Source: Rhodospirillales bacterium
GTDB lineage: Bacteria; Pseudomonadota; Alphaproteobacteria; Geminicoccales; Geminicoccaceae
Length of the DNA stretch: 34,177 bases
Reading direction: 5' to 3'
Assembly: GCA_015490605.1 (NCBI GenBank)
Contig: WFXL01000037.1
Span: forward strand, 1 to 34,177
The position numbers and the translations under genes were made by a program. This document shows positions 3-9,480 of the stretch, piece after piece (position 1 is the stretch's first letter; each line of letters starts with the position of its first letter). The notes under the pieces are model-generated. The model had not been told where the DNA came from. It saw only the letters and a list, made by a program, of their open reading frames with translations, and did not search any database.

Positions 3-125
3 GCCCCGAAGGACCGGGTCCTCGAGGCAATGCGGGCGCGCGGTTTCGACCCCGCCGACGACAACGAGGCGGACGCGCTCGCCCTTCTGATGCTGGTGCT
101 CGACGGACGGAGGAACGCGGCATGA
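3..125 (+). CDS. RuvC-like phage resolvase, C-terminal fragment
   Basis: The frame is open from the window edge and ends with TGA at 123-125. The 40 visible residues include the segment DPADDNEADALALLML, which matches the C-terminal acidic motif of RuvC-like (RNase H fold) phage Holliday-junction resolvases; its aspartates bind metal in that family. The matching N-terminal part of such a protein lies on the opposite strand at about 136-459, so the two pieces look like one gene folded back on itself. Either the window edge captures a small inversion or the assembly has a fold-back chimera here. Identity rests on motif recognition only. A following gene could start at the ATG of 122 (ATGA overlap), but that frame stops at 190. 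Confidence 0.6.
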   Translation, partial: APKDRVLEAMRARGFDPADDNEADALALLMLVLDGRRNAA

Positions 126-459
126 TCCACGCGGACGTGACAGCCCGCGCCTCGCAGAAGGCGGTGATCTCCGCCACGAAGCCGCCGTAGACGTGCGCCG
201 CGTCGGTGCCGAGGTGCCGCCGCACCTCCTCGAACGCCACCTCCGCGAGCCCGCCCCCGACCGTATCGGCCAGCTCCGCCAGCCAGCGGCGGAACCGGAG
301 CCAGCGCATGCCGCCGCCCTCGAACCGGCCGGGCCGGAAGACGGCGGTGCCGGAGCGCACCGGCCGGCCCGGCTGCCACAGCGCCCAGCCCGTCACCGTG
401 CCGGGGTCGAGGGCCAGCACAGCGCCGTCAGCGCGGCATCGCGCAGCCGAATTATCCAT
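126..459 (-). CDS. RuvC-like phage resolvase, N-terminal part (broken)
   Basis: The start ATG at 457-459 has a good ribosome binding site (GGAGG, 7 nt upstream). The product begins with 14 ordinary residues, then the motif VLALDPGTVTGWAL (first catalytic Asp at residue 18) and FEEVRRHLGTDAAHVYGG (second acidic residue at 77-78), both typical of RuvC-like RNase H-fold resolvases in phages. Similarity stops near residue 108 (position about 136). The reading frame stays open to the window edge, but beyond about 135 it only reads the complement of the C-terminal fragment on the plus strand. About 20 central residues are missing between the two pieces. It is the last gene of the leftward replication block and would resolve branched DNA if intact. 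Confidence 0.6.
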
Positions 460-556: not shown

Positions 557-1003
557 TCAGCCGACATTGCCGCCATTCGTCGTGCCAGAGCCCGTGGCGA
601 GCCGGATGCCGACGAACACATTGCAGGCGCGCGTGCGCTCCTTGCGGAAGCCGCGCTCCACCAGCGCCATCGAGAAGCGCTTGTTGCTGCCCGGGTCCTC
701 GCCGTTCCGGCCGCACCATTCGCACCACGCGGCGTAGAGATCGGAGCTCCGGCAGCGGGCCCGCGGGTCCACGGTGCACACGATCATCTCCCCGATGAAC
801 CGTGACACCGGGTCCTGGCCGGGCGTGCCGGGGCCGGCATTGTCGCTCCCGATACCGCCGGCGTCGGCTTTTTCGGACCACGACCGCACCGCCTCGACCA
901 CGAGCGCCCGTGCCGCATCCGCATCGATCGGCAGTAGCCGCTGGACGGCACGGACGAGCTCGCGACGGATCTGCCCGAGGGTCACGGCCTCGTGTTCGCT
1001 CAC
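557..1003 (-). CDS. Stand-alone D5 helicase C-terminal domain protein
   Basis: The protein has 148 residues and starts at GTG 1001-1003 behind GGAG. The first ~65 residues are helical and unfamiliar. From about residue 70 to 140 it closely matches the C-terminal end of the D5-type helicase encoded just upstream (1407-2768): both share an RFI..., CRSS.LYAAW.EWC motif, an N.G.NPG.NK.F-like stretch and RGFRK.RTR. In D5/P4-alpha helicases this end is a winged-helix-like region thought to contact origin DNA or partners. The Walker motifs are absent, so it cannot be a helicase. It could bind the same repeats as the helicase and adjust origin firing, much as small proteins next to P4 alpha control copy number; that is inference. 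Confidence 0.7.
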   Translation of the reverse strand: MSEHEAVTLGQIRRELVRAVQRLLPIDADAARALVVEAVRSWSEKADAGGIGSDNAGPGTPGQDPVSRFIGEMIVCTVDPRARCRSSDLYAAWCEWCGRNGEDPGSNKRFSMALVERGFRKERTRACNVFVGIRLATGSGTTNGGNVG

Positions 1004-1148: not shown

Positions 1149-1397
1149 GGCGTGATGGGTTGGCGTGACGGTTTGCGGGTCTGATCCGGAGTGCCTCGAA
1201 CCGTTGTGTCCGTATAGTTTCCCCGCGGCACGCGCGCAGGGGCGTTACGGGCGTGACGGGTTTCCCCATTATATCCGTTATATGGAGTCTGTGTGCTCGA
1301 CTATACCGGGAAAACCCGTCACACCCGTAACAAGTGCGTTGGTTCAATGGGTTGGGCGTCACGGCACCCGTCACGCACCCGCCACAGCCCGTCACGC
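1149..1397. repeat. Iteron-like repeats, candidate replication origin
   Basis: Between the two leftward genes is about 400 nt without a convincing gene (apart from the tiny ORF at 1000-1107). It holds many degenerate copies of a GCGTGACGGG-like unit. Copies read on the plus strand near 1149-1155, 1162-1172 and 1242-1260, and as the complement (CCCGTCAC, CCCGTAAC) near 1315-1331, 1356-1376 and 1388-1397. Repeats of this kind beside prim-pol/D5 genes resemble iterons bound by P4-alpha-like initiators. No binding has been shown. Confidence 0.55.
1244..1331. repeat. Large inverted repeat around AT-rich DNA
   Basis: The arms are 1244-1267 and 1308-1331; by my alignment 22 of 24 positions pair, each arm reading GTTACGGG...GTGACGGG then a short T/C run. 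The 40-nt centre (1268-1307) is about 40 percent GC by hand count, including TTATATCC and TTATATGG, in a region otherwise near 65-70 percent. Two iteron units sit in each arm. The layout suits an initiator site flanking an unwinding element. Confidence 0.6.
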
Positions 1398-1406
1398 GCC
1401 CCTGTG

Positions 1407-2768
1407 TCATCGGGCGCCTCCATCCCGCAAGGCGTCGCCATCCTGCCGGACGGCGAGCCCCAGGAATTCGGCGCCGAACCGCGTCCGTGTCTTTCGGAAC
1501 CCGCGCTTGACCAACTCCGCTGTGAAACTCTTGTTGGTGCCGGGATTCTCGCCCTGGTTGCGGCACCATTCGGCCCAGGCGGCATAGAGCTTCGAGCTGC
1601 GGCAGCGGAACCCGGTCCCCGGTGGCGTGCCGGGCGCGTCCAGCTCGCAGCACTCGTCGATGAACCGGCCGATCAGGTCCTGCTCGCTCAGGTACTCCTC
1701 GGTTTCGGCCCGCACCGCCTCCGGCGGGGCGAGCCCGCGCTCCCGCCATTTCAGGCAGCCGCGGATCATCCAGCCGAGGATCGCCGGCCATTCCTCCCGC
1801 AGCCGGTCCGGGAGCTCCGGGTCCGGCTCGGGGAAGCGGGCGCGGAAGGGCACCACCCGCATGCGCCGGACGATGGCCGGGTCCACCGCGTCCAGTGCCG
1901 GTTTGAAGTTGCCGCTGATGATCAGCTTGAACTGCGGTTTGAACTCGAAGAAGTCCTGGCGCATGAAGCGCGCCTTGATCATGTCGCCGCCGGTGACCGC
2001 CTTGAGCCGCTGCACGTGCCATTCCTGCCCGCGGCCGATCTCGGTGGCGGTCACCAGCCGCGCGCCCACCAGATCGGCGAGGCCGGCCGGATGATCCTCG
2101 TACTTCTGGCGCACGAACACGTTGTCGGCGGCGGTTTTGTGGTAGGAGCCGAGGATGCCCGCGAGGGTGCCCACGAACACCGACTTGCCGTTGCCGCCCG
2201 GGCCGTAGAGGAACCAGAAGCACTGCTCGCGCACCGAGCCGGTGAGCGCGTAGCCGCACACGCGCTGCAGCCAGTCGGCGAGCTCCCCGTCGCCGCAGGT
2301 CACGTCGCGCAGGAAACGGATCCAGCGCTCCGGCCGGCGGTCGAAGTCCGGCGCCACGGCGGTGGTGCGGGTGATCATGTCTTCGGGCGTGGCCGGCCGC
2401 AGCTCTCCCGTCCGCAGGTCCACCACCCCGCCCGGCGTGCCCAGCAGCCACGGATCGGCGTCGAAGGCCGAGATCGAGGCGTTGATCTCCTCGTGGCCGC
2501 GCATGAGCCGGTCGACGGCGGCGACGGCCCGCCAGCTGCCCCACGACGCCTTCTTCGTGTCGACGGCGAGCGTTCCGCAGTAGCCCTGGATCAGGCGCTG
2601 GACGTGACAGTCTCCGTCACGCCACACGGTGCCGTCGAACACGAGCCACCTGCCGCGTTCCCTGACCCACCGGATGCGCCCGGCATTTTCGCTCACGAGG
2701 AAATGCGCAGCAGAGATCTCGTTCGGCTCGGTTTCGACCGTGACGGGTTTGAAATTCAACACCGTCAT
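1407..2768 (-). CDS. D5-type (P4-alpha-like) phage/plasmid replicative helicase
   Basis: The 453-residue protein has the layout of the primase C-terminal helicases of phages and plasmids (D5_N followed by a superfamily 3 AAA+ helicase). A D5_N-like region spans roughly 55-170, including TPGGVVDLRTG near 111. The Walker A motif GPGGNGKS is at 189-196, a sensor motif IISGN near 283-287, and the arginine-rich RRMRVVPF near 301-308. The C-terminus (about 365-445) is the winged-helix-like D5 end that is repeated as a separate gene at 557-1003. The ATG overlaps the TGA of the prim-pol gene (ATGA), so primase and helicase halves are made as coupled separate proteins. It would unwind the element's origin, plausibly at the downstream repeats. 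Confidence 0.9.
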   Translation of the reverse strand: MTVLNFKPVTVETEPNEISAAHFLVSENAGRIRWVRERGRWLVFDGTVWRDGDCHVQRLIQGYCGTLAVDTKKASWGSWRAVAAVDRLMRGHEEINASISAFDADPWLLGTPGGVVDLRTGELRPATPEDMITRTTAVAPDFDRRPERWIRFLRDVTCGDGELADWLQRVCGYALTGSVREQCFWFLYGPGGNGKSVFVGTLAGILGSYHKTAADNVFVRQKYEDHPAGLADLVGARLVTATEIGRGQEWHVQRLKAVTGGDMIKARFMRQDFFEFKPQFKLIISGNFKPALDAVDPAIVRRMRVVPFRARFPEPDPELPDRLREEWPAILGWMIRGCLKWRERGLAPPEAVRAETEEYLSEQDLIGRFIDECCELDAPGTPPGTGFRCRSSKLYAAWAEWCRNQGENPGTNKSFTAELVKRGFRKTRTRFGAEFLGLAVRQDGDALRDGGAR

Positions 2769-3628
2769 GCTTGCGCTCCTTTTCGCGCGCTGGCGATGGT
2801 CCGGCGCGTTTCCGCCGGATCGAGGCCGGCGGCCCGTGCGGCGGCCGTGAGGACGGCCTCGGCTTCCGGCCAGTCCAGCCGCCCCTCGCGGCCGCGCGCC
2901 GCGGCCCAGAAGGCGTGGCGGTAGAGGGTGACGTTGCGGGTGCCCGGTCGCGCCCGTGCGAGCTCGGACGCCCGCTCCAGCAGCGCCTCGGTGGTCGCGT
3001 CGATGCGTTCGGCGGGCACGAGGTAACGGACCGTGACCGTCTTCGGCCGCGGCCTCGGCACGATCCGGCGCCGCCAGCGGCGCGGCAGCTCCGCGAGCCC
3101 CTCGTGCGGGTGGCGGATCCAGCGTCGGCGGGGCGTGCGCCGGCCGGTGGGCAGGGTGACGCAGCCGCCGCTGGCCTTGACGTCCAGCCCCGGCGCGAGC
3201 GGCTTTGAAGGGATGCGGTCGACACCCGCCGGCCAGCGAAAGAACAGGTGGCGGCCGCCTGTGGGCGTGGCGGCCTCCGCGGTGGGCGGCAGGCGCCCGA
3301 GCCGGCGCTCCAGATCACGCAGCGCCGCCGCCCCGTCGGCGCCGTGGCCGGCCGCGGTGTCCACGTCCAGCACCAGCACGCCGCTCTCGGGCCCGGTCAC
3401 CAGGGCGAGGGCGGCGTGCGGCCAACGGGCGAGCCAGCGCCGGAGGGTCGCGCGGTCGCCGGACGGCACGGCCCGCTCGGGCCAGCGGCGGATGAGCGGC
3501 ACCTTGTCCGGGCCGACCGGCACCAGCCGCCAGCGGGCGGTCTGGGCGTCGCCGTCCGCACCTGCACCACCCGAGGTTGAGCCCGCATCCGCCGGCGCGG
3601 GCGCGGGCGACTGGCTGTACGGTGTCAC
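2765..3628 (-). CDS. Bifunctional DNA primase/polymerase (prim-pol domain)
   Basis: I chose GTG 3626-3628 because GGGAGGA sits 6-7 nt upstream; the frame extends to 3715 but the extra residues look unlike coding sequence. The 287-residue product begins with a Pro/Ala/Gly-rich stretch of about 30 residues. It then shows prim-pol motifs: VPLIRRWPE near 43, the metal-binding DVD in VLVLDVDT (88-90), TPTGGRHLFF (121-130), and LDVKASGGCVTLP (148-160). The C-terminal third is Arg rich and ends in a helical region like the primase C-terminal domains of phage. It makes primers for element replication together with the overlapping D5 helicase. Confidence 0.88.
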   Translation of the reverse strand: MTPYSQSPAPAPADAGSTSGGAGADGDAQTARWRLVPVGPDKVPLIRRWPERAVPSGDRATLRRWLARWPHAALALVTGPESGVLVLDVDTAAGHGADGAAALRDLERRLGRLPPTAEAATPTGGRHLFFRWPAGVDRIPSKPLAPGLDVKASGGCVTLPTGRRTPRRRWIRHPHEGLAELPRRWRRRIVPRPRPKTVTVRYLVPAERIDATTEALLERASELARARPGTRNVTLYRHAFWAAARGREGRLDWPEAEAVLTAAARAAGLDPAETRRTIASARKGAQA

Positions 3629-3844
3629 CGGGCGTCCTCCCGTGCGGCCCCACCTCACTGTGGAGCGCGTCAGCGCGCAGTCGAGGTCGAGTTCCGCCGC
3701 CACCGATATTGGCACGACGACCGTCGCCCATGCAACGGCCCGTGTCGGCCGAAAACACTAAAAGCGTGGCATTTTATCAATCTAGAATTCTGGCTTCGCG
3801 ATGGTGATGCTATACATGCCCGCGGAGCACGGAGGAGACGCCCC
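3629..3844. promoter_or_regulatory. Divergent control region of the element
   Basis: These 216 nt separate the leftward replication genes from the rightward recombination/integration genes. The part from 3750 to 3820 is clearly AT-richer than its surroundings. It contains the palindrome AGAATTCT (3784-3791) and an imperfect inverted pair AAAAGC/GCATTTT (about 3760-3775) that could be operators. A phage repressor gene would be expected near such a region but none is encoded here. Confidence 0.5.
3788..3817 (+). promoter_or_regulatory. Putative rightward promoter
   Basis: TTCTGG (3788-3793) and TATACA (3811-3816) are separated by 17 nt. The -10 element is good and the -35 element weak. GGAGGAG at 3831-3837 and the ATG at 3845 follow at suitable distances. 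The overlap of the -35 box with the AGAATTCT palindrome would allow repression. Confidence 0.45.
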
Positions 3845-4129: not shown

Positions 4130-4446
4130 GCGGCGTGCCGGTGCCCATGCCCACACCCCACGAGCTGCGCGCCGCCCGCGAACGCAGCCTGTCGGAGGTC
4201 GGCCGAGCCCGTCTGATCGAGCGGCTGTGGCACGGGCTCGGCCACCGCGACGTGCGGGTGTGGGTGGCGCGGGAACACGGACGGCAGGTGGTGCGCTCCA
4301 ACCTGATCAACGGCCTGCCGCCCTCGGCCCTGGGGCTCGCGGAGATGGTGGACTGGCAGGGCGTGGCCGCGCGCCTGCGCGGGCGCCTCGCCGAGGAGGA
4401 ATGGGAACGGCTGGTGCGGGAGCACACGGCATGGAAGGCGGCCTGA
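4126..4446 (+). CDS. Small element protein, unknown function
   Basis: The start ATG overlaps the preceding stop. The 106-residue product is helical and charged, with HELRAARERSLSEVGRARL at 12-30 and a tail ending in RLVREHTAWKAA. No catalytic motif or signal peptide is visible. The nuclease gene starts inside its last codons (16-bp overlap). It may be a DNA-binding or accessory protein of the recombination module, but nothing in the sequence proves this. Confidence 0.6.
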   Translation: MSGVPVPMPTPHELRAARERSLSEVGRARLIERLWHGLGHRDVRVWVAREHGRQVVRSNLINGLPPSALGLAEMVDWQGVAARLRGRLAEEEWERLVREHTAWKAA

Positions 4447-5381
4447 GGATCACGGAACCCGGCCTCTACCGGGACGTGCCTGATGCGGACTACCACGCGG
4501 ATCCGTGTCCCGAGCCGTCGCTCTCCTCGACCCTCGCCAAGGTGCTGCTCTCGCGCTCGCCGCTGCACGCGGCGGTGCGCCACCCCAGGCTCGCGAAGCG
4601 GCAACAGTGCGAGGAGAAGGCGGCCTTCGACCTCGGCCGGGTGGCGCACGCACTGCTGCTGGGCAGGGGTGCGGACTTCGCGGTGATCGACCACGAGGAC
4701 TGGCGCACGAAGGCCGCCCGCGAGGCCCGCGACGAGGCGCGGGAACAGGGGCTCACGCCCATCCTCCGCCCCCAGTTCGAGCAGGCCGAGGCGATGGTGG
4801 CCTCGCTGCGCGACCAGCTTCGGCAGCACGAGTGCGCCGGCGCCTTCGAGGGCGGGCTCGCCGAAGCCACGCTGGTCTGGCGCGAGGAAAACGGCGTCTG
4901 GTGCCGGGCGCGGATCGACTGGATGCCGGATCCGCCGACCGACGGCATCGTGATCTACGACTACAAGACCACCTCCGCCTCGGCCGAGCCCGCGGCCTTC
5001 GGCGGCCGCAACCTCTTTGCCCTCGGCTACGACATCCAGGCGGCCTTCTACCTGCGCGGCATCGGCGCGGTGCTCGGGATCGGGGATGCCCGCCTGCGCT
5101 TCGTGGTGCAGGAGACCGAGGAACCCTTCGCCGCCACGGTGCTGGAGATCGGCCCCGGCTCGCTGGCCATGGCCGGGCGGCAGGTCACGAAGGCCATCGA
5201 GGTGTGGGGCCGGTGTCTGGAGACCGGCATCTGGCCCGCCTATCCGCCCCGCGTCTGCCACGTCGAGGCGCCGGCCTGGCACGAGCACCGGGTGCTCGAT
5301 GCCGAGGCGCGCGAGACCGAGTTCGGCGACGTGTTGGACCAGTACATCGCCGCGTTCGCACCCGGCGGAGAGGCGGCATGA
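4431..5381 (+). CDS. PD-(D/E)XK exonuclease, DUF3799/RecE-like
   Basis: The 316-residue protein opens with GLYRDVPDADYH and SLSSTLAKVLLSRSPLH, as in DUF3799/RecE C-terminal nucleases of phage. Motifs of the RecB-like fold follow in order: GRVAH (His 73), E145 in AEATLVW, D163 in ARIDW, DYK (177-179) in IYDYKTT, and QAAFY with Gln 203. These are the metal-binding and catalytic residues of the family. Partnered with the Sak4-type ATPase two genes further on, it would resect double-stranded ends for annealing-type recombination. Length fits the family. The longer open frame back to 4227 overlaps the previous gene and is not used. Confidence 0.87.
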   Translation: MEGGLRITEPGLYRDVPDADYHADPCPEPSLSSTLAKVLLSRSPLHAAVRHPRLAKRQQCEEKAAFDLGRVAHALLLGRGADFAVIDHEDWRTKAAREARDEAREQGLTPILRPQFEQAEAMVASLRDQLRQHECAGAFEGGLAEATLVWREENGVWCRARIDWMPDPPTDGIVIYDYKTTSASAEPAAFGGRNLFALGYDIQAAFYLRGIGAVLGIGDARLRFVVQETEEPFAATVLEIGPGSLAMAGRQVTKAIEVWGRCLETGIWPAYPPRVCHVEAPAWHEHRVLDAEARETEFGDVLDQYIAAFAPGGEAA

Positions 5382-5692
5382 GCGGCCGCCGCGACTTGGC
5401 GCGTATCTGGCTCGCGCTCGCCTTCCGCCATCTGGATGTCGCCGAGGCGGCCGACCGGACCATGGGCCTGCTGCCGAGCCGACACGTGGCCCTGATGGAT
5501 CTCGCGGCCACCTCCGAGATCGAGGCGCTGGAATGTCTCGTCGAAGCCGCGCGCCACGCCGGCCTGGGCGACAGGCATGTCCGCCGCGTCCTGACCGTGG
5601 CCCTCATGGGCGCGGACTGGGGGTTGGATCCCGGTCGTGCGCGCCGGATGGTGCGGCGGACGGCGCGGCTCCTGTTCCGGGAGGAGCAATGA
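5378..5692 (+). CDS. Small element protein, unknown function
   Basis: The ATG overlaps the nuclease stop (ATGA). The 104-residue product is predicted helical, with LARIWLALAFRHLDVAEAADR at its start and an Arg-rich end (RARRMVRRTARLLFREEQ). Hydrophobic positions are spaced as in amphipathic helices rather than membrane spans. No family recognised. Its place between nuclease and annealing ATPase suggests an accessory of that module. Confidence 0.6.
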   Translation: MSGRRDLARIWLALAFRHLDVAEAADRTMGLLPSRHVALMDLAATSEIEALECLVEAARHAGLGDRHVRRVLTVALMGADWGLDPGRARRMVRRTARLLFREEQ

Positions 5693-6084
5693 CCGCCTTC
5701 GCCATCCGCCACGCCCACACCGGCCTGTTCTACGCCGGGACCACCCCGATGCTCCGGATCACCGTCTGGCGCCGCCGGCCGCGCGACGCTGCGCTGTTCG
5801 CCACCGAGTCCGAGGCGTGGGCGGCGGCGGCCGGCCTCGGCACGGCCCTCGCCGGGGCGGTGGAGGTGGTGCCGGTTCGGGCCCGCGGGCTGGCGCCCAT
5901 GGACGACCTGTTCGAACGGAATGCGGGGGCCGCGGCGTCTCCCACGGCCGGTGGCCGGCACGGCCGCGACGCCCGTCCTGCCTCGCGTCGCGTCCCCCCG
6001 GGTGCTCAGCAGGCGCGACGCAGTGGGTCAATCCGCGCCGCGGGGCAACTGTCTGGCGGCAAGGGCGGGAAGCCGGCGGCATGA
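5689..6084 (+). CDS. Small element protein, unknown function
   Basis: The start ATG lies in the stop of the previous gene, with GGGAGGAG just upstream. The first ~80 of 131 residues look structured (AFAIRHAHTGLFYAG, ESEAWAAAAGLGTAL), of the type seen in short phage proteins. The last ~45 residues are low-complexity Arg/Gly/Ala/Pro and may be disordered. No family recognised. A 66-nt gap without a gene follows. Confidence 0.55.
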   Translation: MTAFAIRHAHTGLFYAGTTPMLRITVWRRRPRDAALFATESEAWAAAAGLGTALAGAVEVVPVRARGLAPMDDLFERNAGAAASPTAGGRHGRDARPASRRVPPGAQQARRSGSIRAAGQLSGGKGGKPAA

Positions 6085-6150
6085 CCGGAGGTCGAGCGGC
6101 GGGCAGGACATCGTTCCTGTCCGCCGCCGCCCACATCGGAGAAACGGGCC

Positions 6151-6390
6151 ATGGATACGGATCGCGTGCTGGACCATGCCGTGCAGATCCGCGCCGCCAT
6201 GGAACGCGCGCGGGCCTGCGTGATCGGGATCCTCGGCGACATGCCGGTCGAGCTGGAGCGCGTCGTCGCGGACGACCGGATCCGGGACGTTCTCGTGAGC
6301 GGCCTCGTGCGGGCGGTAGCGAACGCCCTCGTGCACATCGAGGACGCCGCCGCGCACGCGGAGCACATCGGCAGGGAGCTTTGCCCATGA
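6151..6390 (+). CDS. Small helical element protein, unknown function
   Basis: The 79-residue product starts at ATG behind GGAGA. It is almost entirely helix-forming, with hydrophobic positions spaced in heptads (VLDHAVQIRAAMERARACVI, LVRAVANALVHIEDAAAHAE), suggesting a small helical bundle or oligomer. Its stop overlaps the start of the ATPase gene (ATGA), so the two products are made together and may interact. Confidence 0.6.
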   Translation: MDTDRVLDHAVQIRAAMERARACVIGILGDMPVELERVVADDRIRDVLVSGLVRAVANALVHIEDAAAHAEHIGRELCP

Positions 6391-7460
6391 GCTTCACCTT
6401 CCGTCCCGCCACGCGCGAGAATGCGCGGCTGCTGATCGGTCTCTGCGGCCCCTCGGGCGGCGGCAAGACCCTCTCCGCGCTGCGCCTCGCGACGGGCCTT
6501 GCCGGCGGCGGCGAGATCGTGGTGATCGACACCGAGCGCGGGCGGGCGGCCCAGTACGCCGCCCCGCCCGGCGGCCCGCCCAACCCGCCGGAAAGCTATG
6601 CCTTCCTCGTGGGCGCCTTGGAGCCGCCCTTCACCCCGGCCCGCTACCGCGAGGCCCTGGAGGCCGCCTACGCCCGCGGGCCCGCGGTGGTGATCATCGA
6701 CTCCATGTCCCACGAGTGGGAGGGGCCGGGCGGCATCCTCGAGATGGTGGACCGGATCAAGGCCGAGCGGAAGGTCAACGACTTCGCTGCCTGGGCGAAG
6801 CCCAAGCAGGAGCACCAGAAGCTGGTCAACACGCTGCTCCAGGCCCCCTGCCACCTGGTCCTGTGCATGCGCGCCAAGGAGAAGCGCACGCTGGTGCGGG
6901 ACACCCATGGACGCACCGAGGTGGTGGATGCCGGCTGGGCGCCCATCTGCGAGCCCAACCTCACCTACGAGCTCACCGTCAACATGCTGCTGGGGCCCGT
7001 CGGCAAGGGCGTGCCCACGTTCGACTTCGACCACGGCAAGCTTCCCGCCAACATGAAGGGCCTGTTCCGTGAGGGGGAGCGGATCACCGAGGCCCTCGGC
7101 GAACGCCTTGCGGCGTGGTGTCGTGGATGTGCCGGGCCCGGGGACGTGGAGGAGGGAGCGCGGCAGCCGGCGGCAGAACCGGCCGCCGCGCCTAAGCGCC
7201 GACCGCTCGTCGTCTACACGGCTTCCGGACAGCCGGCCTCCAGTGTCATGCGCGCCGCCGACTGGCTGGAGGCGTACCGGGCCGAGCTCGCACGCACGCC
7301 TGCGGAGCTGCGCGACGCCTTCATGGGGAAGAACCTGGGAACCCTGCGCGACCTCGCCGCTCGGGCCGAACGGAAGGCCCCGCCGGAGCTGCGCGAGGCC
7401 TTCGCCCGAGAGCTGGCCGCGGCCGAGGCGGCGCTGCGGGATGCGGAGGATGCGGCATGA
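6387..7460 (+). CDS. Sak4-type RecA-fold ATPase, single-strand annealing
   Basis: The 357-residue protein has Walker A GPSGGGKT at 21-28, an acidic strand VVIDTERG near 45-52, and Walker B VVIIDS at 101-106. The sequence around it (DSMSHEWEGPGG, then a WAKPKQEHQ-like stretch and LVLCMRAKEK) is typical of AAA_24/Sak4 phage ATPases, which are RecA/Rad51-like and promote annealing. The last ~100 residues after the ATPase core are a Pro/Ala linker and charged helices. With the DUF3799-type nuclease it forms a phage recombination pair. Confidence 0.82.
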   Translation: MSFTFRPATRENARLLIGLCGPSGGGKTLSALRLATGLAGGGEIVVIDTERGRAAQYAAPPGGPPNPPESYAFLVGALEPPFTPARYREALEAAYARGPAVVIIDSMSHEWEGPGGILEMVDRIKAERKVNDFAAWAKPKQEHQKLVNTLLQAPCHLVLCMRAKEKRTLVRDTHGRTEVVDAGWAPICEPNLTYELTVNMLLGPVGKGVPTFDFDHGKLPANMKGLFREGERITEALGERLAAWCRGCAGPGDVEEGARQPAAEPAAAPKRRPLVVYTASGQPASSVMRAADWLEAYRAELARTPAELRDAFMGKNLGTLRDLAARAERKAPPELREAFARELAAAEAALRDAEDAA

Positions 7461-7907: not shown

Positions 7908-8158
7908 CCGAGATCGAGACGGCCCATCTCGCCGGCTTCCGCCGCTTCCGCGACTTCCGGCGGGCCCTGCGCGCGGGACGCTTTCCTCAACCCGACGTTG
8001 AGCTTCCCGACGGGCCGCGGTGGTCCGAGGCGAGTTTAACGCGCTTGCTGGACGCTTCGCCTGGTTCCGGGTCTCATGCCGGCGCGGAGGGAAGCGTGAT
8101 CGAGAGGATGCGTCGCCGTGCGGAAAAAGCCGCGTCATCTCACGACACGGGTCCGTAA
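7886..8158 (+). CDS. Excisionase/AlpA-like DNA-binding protein
   Basis: The 90-residue product has the pattern of small winged-helix excisionases: TPRLLTEIETAHLAGF near the start, RDFRRALRAGRFPQPD in the middle, and RWSEASLTRLLD around 45-57. In that family these form the recognition helix, the wing with 'G.fP.P', and the closing helix. It lies directly upstream of the integrase, whose GTG start it overlaps by 41 nt. It would direct the integrase towards excision and might repress the integrase promoter. The assignment is by pattern and position. Confidence 0.65.
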   Translation: MSTPRLLTEIETAHLAGFRRFRDFRRALRAGRFPQPDVELPDGPRWSEASLTRLLDASPGSGSHAGAEGSVIERMRRRAEKAASSHDTGP

Positions 8159-9197
8159 CGGGCGGATCGCGTACTACTGGCAGCCCTCGGCGAGCCTGAA
8201 GCGCCTCGGCTTTCGTCTGCGCCGGCTTTCCGACGATCCGGCGATCGCATGGCGCGAGGCCGAGGAACTCAATGCCGAGGCCGACCGGTACCGTGAGCTG
8301 GTCGGCACAGATCCAACAGGACACCCAAGACCCGGCACCATCCGGTGGCTCGCGGCGCAATTCAAGTCGCATGACGATTATCTGGCCCTTTCCGAGAGAA
8401 CGCGCGACGACTATGCAAGATTCCTAGATATGATCTGCACCCTGATAGGGGACGAGCGGATTGAAGATATCACGCCACCTGTCGTGGCCGAGATGAAGCG
8501 TCTAGGAAAGGACAAGCCATGGCAGACCAACTATATGCTCCGCGTTTTGCGGTTGCTGTTCAGCTTCGGCATCCGCGAAGGCTACTGCACGACAAATCCT
8601 GCCCGCGGCTTTCGCCAGTTGCGTACACGGCCACGGGAAGCTGTGTGGACGCACGAGCAGGAGAAGCGCTTTCTCGCCGCGTGCGAGGAGATGGGCCGGC
8701 CGTCGGTCGCGCTTGCATACCGGATCGCCATCTGGACGGCGCAGCGGCAGGCGGACGTGCTGCGGCTGTCATGGACGGACTACCACGACGGGGCGCTTCA
8801 TGTGCGGCAGAGCAAGACCGGACGGCCGGTGGTGATTCCCGTCATCGGGCCCCTAGCCGAAGCGCTTGAAGCGGCGCCACGCGTCGCCACGGTGATCGTG
8901 GCGGACGAGCGCGGCCTGCCTTGGAAGGCATACCACTTTCGCCACGTGTTCAAGCGCATCATGCGCGCGGCCGGCATCGAGGGCGTGCGGTTCCAGGATC
9001 TGCGCCGCACCGCCATCGTGCGGCTTGCCGAGGCCGGCTGTACCGTGCCGGAAATCGCCGCCATCAGCGGCCACCAGATCGACTACTGCCAGCGCATCCT
9101 GGAGGTGTACCTGCCGCGCACCCGGCGCCTGGCTGAGCGGGCGGTGGTCAAGCTGGTGCGGAACGAAACCGGTACGCGAGGCCGAGCCGGAGTCTAA
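8118..9197 (+). CDS. Tyrosine recombinase (phage integrase)
   Basis: The start is GTG 8118 behind GAGAGG. The 359-residue protein has an N-terminal arm-binding region (1-75), a core-binding helical domain (75-170) and a C-terminal catalytic domain. Catalytic residues are Arg 210 (WTAQRQADVLRLSW), Lys 233 (RQSKTG), Arg 296 (FQDLRRTA), His 319 (SGHQ) and the nucleophile Tyr 331 (LEVYLPRT). The box II His is Gln 293; substitution at this place is, to my memory, common in this alphaproteobacterial integrase group and need not abolish activity. The gene points at the tRNA-Arg 3' end 48 nt away, which fixes the attachment site. Confidence 0.93.
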   Translation: MRKKPRHLTTRVRNGRIAYYWQPSASLKRLGFRLRRLSDDPAIAWREAEELNAEADRYRELVGTDPTGHPRPGTIRWLAAQFKSHDDYLALSERTRDDYARFLDMICTLIGDERIEDITPPVVAEMKRLGKDKPWQTNYMLRVLRLLFSFGIREGYCTTNPARGFRQLRTRPREAVWTHEQEKRFLAACEEMGRPSVALAYRIAIWTAQRQADVLRLSWTDYHDGALHVRQSKTGRPVVIPVIGPLAEALEAAPRVATVIVADERGLPWKAYHFRHVFKRIMRAAGIEGVRFQDLRRTAIVRLAEAGCTVPEIAAISGHQIDYCQRILEVYLPRTRRLAERAVVKLVRNETGTRGRAGV

Positions 9198-9244: not shown

Positions 9245-9321
9245 TGGTGCGCCCGGCAGGATTCGAACCTGCGACCCCCGGATTAGGAATCCGATGCTCT
9301 ATCCTGCTGAGCTACGGGCGC
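9245..9321 (-). tRNA. tRNA-Arg (anticodon CCU)
   Basis: On the minus strand the gene begins GCGCCCGTAGCTC and ends with the pairing CGGGCGC, discriminator A and an encoded CCA (9245-9247). The anticodon loop is TTCCTAA, giving CCU, and the T loop is GGTTCGAATCC. The 3' half is the likely attB/attR of the element: integrase and repeats lie immediately beyond it, and the tRNA is intact. Confidence 0.95.
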
Positions 9322-9405: not shown

Positions 9406-9480
9406 GGGCGCTTAGCTCAGCGGTAGAGCACCGTCTTCACACGGCGGGGGTCGCTGGTTCGAACCCAGCAGCGCCCACCA
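9406..9480 (+). tRNA. tRNA-Val (anticodon CAC)
   Basis: The acceptor stem GGGCGCT pairs with AGCGCCC before discriminator A and an encoded CCA. The D arm is GCTC/GAGC, the anticodon loop TTCACAC gives CAC, and the T arm is GCTGG TTCGAAC CCAGC. It is divergent from tRNA-Arg with 84 nt between them. Confidence 0.93.

Follow-up and report, generated by a model that had tools for sequence, protein, structure and literature searches.

A separately encoded copy of a helicase's origin-binding-type domain beside the putative origin of a prim-pol element

Why should a replicon encode twice the part of its helicase that probably grips the replication origin, once within the helicase and once in a small protein of its own? 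The question is raised by a contig of a Rhodospirillales bacterium (WFXL01000037.1, 34,177 nucleotides, analysed as a whole and called the window below). Here, a Prim-Pol primase/polymerase gene (2765-3715, minus strand) precedes an SF3/D5-type helicase gene of 453 aa (1407-2768, minus strand; D5_N, DUF5906, Pox_D5; P4-family primase C-terminal domain), and the C-terminal origin-binding-type domain of the helicase itself is encoded at 1446-1685 (minus strand). A preliminary description had proposed that a small gene at 557-1003 repeats this domain on a new N-terminus across a putative origin, and that it could act as a copy-number switch. Elsewhere in the window, the strand opposite to the replication genes carries, at 4431-7460, a PD-(D/E)XK nuclease (DUF3799) together with a frame for an AAA_24 ATPase; the two probably form the recombination module of the element. 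A tyrosine integrase gene (8118-9197) ends 47 nt from a tRNA-Arg(cct) gene (9245-9321, minus strand), which is likely the prophage attachment site and is followed by a tRNA-Val gene at 9406-9480.

The small gene (557-1003, minus strand) is an intact frame of 148 codons with a GTG start and a ribosome-site-like GGAG about 8 nt 5' of it, and we read it from its frame, homology, composition and structure model as a free origin-binding-type domain with an N-terminus of its own. G+C at codon position 3 was 0.82 in the N-terminus and 0.92 in the domain, compared to 0.59 in an intergenic stretch, which supports the translation of both halves. We found that residues 63-133 align to helicase residues 363-438 with 40/78 identical positions (51%, E 4e-21), and the match is therefore not due to chance; the repeat comes to about 71 residues after an N-terminus of 62, close to the ~75 and ~65 first described. 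When the window copy was compared to 208 helicase domains, its own helicase was the best match, and the window copy keeps each of the 8 columns that are invariant across 13 aligned domains. Against the Pox_D5 profile (PF03288), the small protein scored 20.8 bits for a cut-off of 21.4 (E 5.5e-4) and 21.6 bits in a second run, and the helicase's own domain passed the cut-off with 25.6 bits. Divergence between the two copies (dS 0.81, dN 0.37) suggests constraint, short of proof.

To place the copy structurally, the 148-aa protein was modelled from an alignment of 74 domains of the window and of related loci. The model (mean pLDDT 83) shows a predicted helical hairpin (helices 3-23 and 28-48) in the N-terminal region of residues 1-62 (818-1003, minus strand), followed by a low-confidence linker and a winged helix at about residues 63-137, within the Pox_D5/P4-alpha-type domain of residues 63-148 (560-817, minus strand). 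Structures matched by residues 62-140 of the model include the P4 alpha domain (1ka8; Z 8.2, rmsd 2.9, 76 aligned), the DNA-binding domain of RFX (1dp7; Z 9.6, rmsd 1.9, 70 aligned) and the C-terminus of AsfvPrimPol (Z 9.0). The winged helix is widespread, however, and background matches may reach a Z of about 8. Foldseek returned no match at E ≤0.001 for this model, and since Foldseek by itself is weak here, the winged-helix assignment rests on sequence and fold jointly. A PDB sequence search with the small protein gave a best E of only 0.4 or worse. Together, the homology and the predicted fold support the small protein as a free copy of the helicase's winged-helix domain of origin-binding type, and the match to the P4 domain agrees with the first description of a free domain of the origin-docking type, for which the C-terminal domains of SaPI Rep and SCCmec Cch2, described as recognizing iterons directly downstream of the helicase gene, provide a precedent (PMC7581432).

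We found no source for the 62-residue N-terminus among the sequences compared. Its best local score against the whole helicase, 25, was equalled by 448/500 shuffles, its score against the prim-pol was reached by 30/500 shuffles and not counted as a match, and no relative was present among the other frames of the collected loci. A scan of 400-1500 for sigma-70-like promoters gave none. Whole-protein relatives were likewise absent from viral contigs (0, with 4 pattern matches) and genome contigs (0, with 53 pattern matches), and in this analysis the window small protein is known from one incomplete genome. Among 96 related genomes, 6 matched, namely its own genome and 5 with only long frames of 495-776 aa, which were rejected as orthologs and read as helicase-type by frame length. 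The small protein had a match in 0/3 same-genus genomes (G001-G003), and the element is therefore not universal in the genus.

The helicase and small-gene copies of the domain are separated by an origin-like palindrome at 1244-1331, with arms of 30 nt each (1244-1273 and 1302-1331; 87% complementary) that are 28 nt apart. The window has 9 copies of the 9-bp motif GTKACGGGY, compared to 1.11 expected, and 6/9 fall within 1244-1395: 4 of these 6 form two pairs at 9 bp spacing in the arms (1244 and 1253 on the plus strand; 1314 and 1323 on the minus strand), and two more lie at 1366-1374 and 1387-1395 (minus strand). When folded as DNA, the region reached -64.1 kcal/mol (z -3.76), and 0/200 shuffles were as stable. 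The origin suspected beforehand between the two genes thus holds up as an element, with its core corrected to 1244-1331, and the small gene does lie across it from the helicase. Since the element is 3' of the helicase gene, as are published origins of this replicon class, we infer by analogy that it is the replication origin.

The same signature is common in relatives. An inverted repeat stronger than all 10 shuffles was found just 3' of the helicase in 136/169 distinct loci, compared to 12/169 for control stretches inside the helicase; this survey has no row for the window, most likely because locus L317 with the same stretch was counted first. Paired short repeats face each other across a core in a second carrier of a free copy (G311) and in most of the loci described below as fused, with the same plan and different repeat sequences, and exact inverted arms were detected by script in 6/8 fused loci but were absent from L095 and L096. 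We regard a strong inverted repeat 3' of the helicase, together with a frequent RuvC-like gene, as a general origin marker in this replicon family.

Whether the split arrangement is conserved had been set beforehand as a test of the first description. Loci with relatives of the helicase were drawn from viral contigs, genome contigs and sampled genomes, and all their frames were scanned with a profile of the domain. Among 241 helicase-bearing loci (2.11 Mb), 10 contained an extra domain; 11 further instances of the window and G311 regions are excluded from the 241, in which one element may still appear twice. All ten extra domains share the strand of the helicase and come immediately after it and the putative origin, 415-899 nt past the helicase core. 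Some elements are present in two collections, and L281 repeats L263; after deduplication to 144 clusters, the arrangement recurs in 10, in answer to that test, while a RuvC-like gene occupies the slot in 50 that lack a copy, and 84 have neither. The copies take three forms: the 148-aa gene of the window; an almost bare domain in a 90-aa gene (L263/G311) whose next gene is Nu1-like; and, in eight loci (L022, L024, L083, L095, L096, L097, L098 and L225), the N-terminal part of a RuvC-like protein. Two pairs of the fused copies look constrained (dN 0.17, dS 0.91; dN 0.09, dS 0.61).

Several other candidates were rejected as free copies. When 398 genomes of the phylum were searched with a profile, the window and G311 copies were recovered together with two other short frames, the isolated remnant L306 and a candidate frame of 231 aa (G485:C16, L315). 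L306 is an 83-aa isolated fragment with no helicase core beside it, and L008 (a Streptomyces plasmid), L092 and L093 are helicase pieces or remnants; the ten exclude L093 and L306 since neither has an adjacent helicase core, L092 has no start-to-stop helicase, and L008 was counted among the helicases in the first tree. When the G311 protein and the N-terminal part of L225 were used as scan queries, each gave one distant helicase-type locus.

To determine whether the ten copies share one origin, we placed them in a tree with the helicase domains. The 8 fused copies group in a single clade (100/96). The partner of the G311 copy is the domain of its own helicase (100/94), and the window copy likewise lies closest to that of its own helicase, although the fork joining the window pair has no support of its own. 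The first tree, built without G311 and L225, likewise set the window copy beside its own helicase; the second was built without the distant or fragmentary L005, L008, L009, L010, L013, L092, L093 and L271 and without near-identical rows. With only 74 columns, single branches are weak and the bootstrap is not settled. A single origin for all ten was rejected (p-AU 0.0025), from which we deduce at least three acquisitions; most likely, the slot was filled at least three times independently. In the ranking of 208 domains, the G311 copy also placed its own helicase first, and the fused copies placed theirs at 21-86. Since the fused copies are not closest to their own helicases, a shared target is not implied for that group.

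What, then, could a free domain do at this place? Its repeated acquisition at one slot and the iteron-bearing stem-loop between the copies support a free origin-binding protein, and the free copy probably tunes or marks the origin. We hold it about evenly probable that the protein acts at the element's own origin, more likely as a brake; a brake role taken by itself falls a little short of even. In the favored reading, the small protein would bind the same iterons as the helicase, having kept the DNA grip without the ATPase ring and thus without the motor, and its occupancy would block helicase assembly. The helical N-terminus may pair subunits. The small protein might also repress its own transcription, since the element lies upstream of the small-gene start. 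Two described cases make such a role plausible: the Cch2 C-terminal domain, when isolated, binds to repeats that lie downstream of the Cch2 gene (PMC7581432), and the pIGRK protein RepR', an N-terminally truncated Rep that binds the origin region, is a negative regulator that opposes initiation (PMC6854812). RepR' differs in that it arises from an internal start within one gene, compared to a duplicated domain in the window, and its Rep family appears to be unrelated to the window protein. Present evidence fits a brake and a helper alike, and the copy-number switch first suggested is one of two fair readings.

The other is a possible though rather less probable role as a targeting adaptor, in which the free domain brings a RuvC-like Holliday-junction resolvase to the stem-loop of the origin. 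The stem-loop may extrude as a four-way junction, and the nuclease would nick or resolve this cruciform or joined replication products. In favor of this role are the strong inverted repeats found after the helicase in most loci, and in the window the small gene is followed, on its own strand, by a RuvC-like gene (phrog_159, E 5e-6). Its N-terminal part (130-459, minus strand) keeps two motifs, LALDPGT and FEEVRRH, and is truncated by the contig end, its C-terminal part (3-125, plus strand) is inverted, and the stretch between them is missing. The inverted contig end (1-140) looks like an amplification or an assembly chimera, and no second copy was found in this genome. In relatives, 164/167 RuvC-like stretches carry the motif patterns that we take to be those of RuvC catalysis (D-E-D-D). 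Adjacency by itself is expected, however, since a RuvC-like gene fills the slot in 50 of the 134 clusters without a copy, and the G311 copy adjoins its Nu1-like gene with no RuvC-like gene there.

The eight fusions speak more directly for the adaptor. The fused L083 protein was modelled with confidence in both domains, and its RuvC part matches the RuvC of D. radiodurans (Z 17.6) and E. coli (Z 16.2), while its first 40 residues are of low confidence. In all eight fused loci the origin-like element lies within the open frame of the fused protein; unless the start is later, the origin would be translated as these roughly 40 low-confidence residues. Since the fused group is one clade, on the other hand, the fusion looks like a single event. 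Fusions in 8 of 10 copies and the RuvC-like neighbor in the window nonetheless make nuclease recruitment a serious alternative to a switch. That prim-pol/SF3 replicons repeatedly evolve a helicase-free origin binder across the stem-loop, which aims a RuvC-type nuclease at the origin cruciform, is a doubtful generalization; if true, it would point to an origin-specific, nuclease-assisted step in initiation or in the resolution of replication products.

Decay offers an improbable explanation of the window gene, as a recent and non-functional remnant of a duplicated helicase end. The lack of orthologs in viral and genome contigs, the helicase remnants at L008, L092 and L093 and the only moderately low dN/dS of the window copy would all fit a remnant. 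On the other hand, the frame of 148 codons is intact with coding composition and a GGAG, the invariant positions are kept in a confident fold, and decay leaves the recurrence at one slot unexplained. Least probable, and very much so, is a weapon between elements whose free or nuclease-fused domain binds the origins of competitors by analogy with ICP1 Odn, a nuclease with a borrowed origin-binding domain (PMC8263062): the fused copies do resemble the helicase domains of other elements more than their own, but in the window and in G311 the copy is most similar to its own helicase, which makes an Odn-like role least fitting for the window, no nuclease match was found in the window protein, and all copies lie inside the replication module and not in a variable cargo slot.

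Comparison to known systems separates what is familiar at this locus from what is new. The domain is like that of P4 alpha in its predicted winged helix and its position class in the helicase, and P4 repeats are bound at the origin (PMC4234260); in P4, however, the domain belongs to alpha, while the window has a separate gene too. For SaPI Rep and Cch2, no natural free copy is mentioned in the excerpt of PMC7581432. pRN1 and Bordetella phage BIP-1 combine a prim-pol, an SF3 helicase and a winged helix, and a large stem-loop follows their replication gene on its 3' side; the excerpt describes no iterons at these origins (PMC4234260), unlike the element in the window. BPP-1, which is near-identical to BIP-1, has no extra domain annotated at that place. 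P4 Cnr is a small copy-number control protein of a related replicon (PMC8628076). Its gene lies between epsilon and alpha, and its likeness to the window gene is one of analogy. Cnr is not known to duplicate the C-terminus of alpha. Odn joins a RepA_N origin-binding domain to a GIY-YIG-type nuclease domain (PMC8263062), as the fused group joins its domain to a RuvC-like one, and the window protein has no such nuclease part, hence no Odn-like pair of domains. In open-licence PubMed Central, no title or abstract among the matches listed dealt with a free copy of this domain or with its RuvC fusion. The domain, the origin plan and the helicase are thus of known kinds, and what is new is a separately encoded and repeatedly re-evolved copy.

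Altogether, these findings point to a recurrent genetic device in which the origin-binding domain of a helicase is freed beside its own origin. As a brake, the copy would be a simple form of copy-number control that arose through duplication of a domain. As a guide for a resolvase, it would tie origin recognition to junction cutting and would hint at the job of the RuvC-like gene that often follows these origins. On both readings, the origins can be located with ease in many prim-pol prophages, just after the helicase, and are easy to test.
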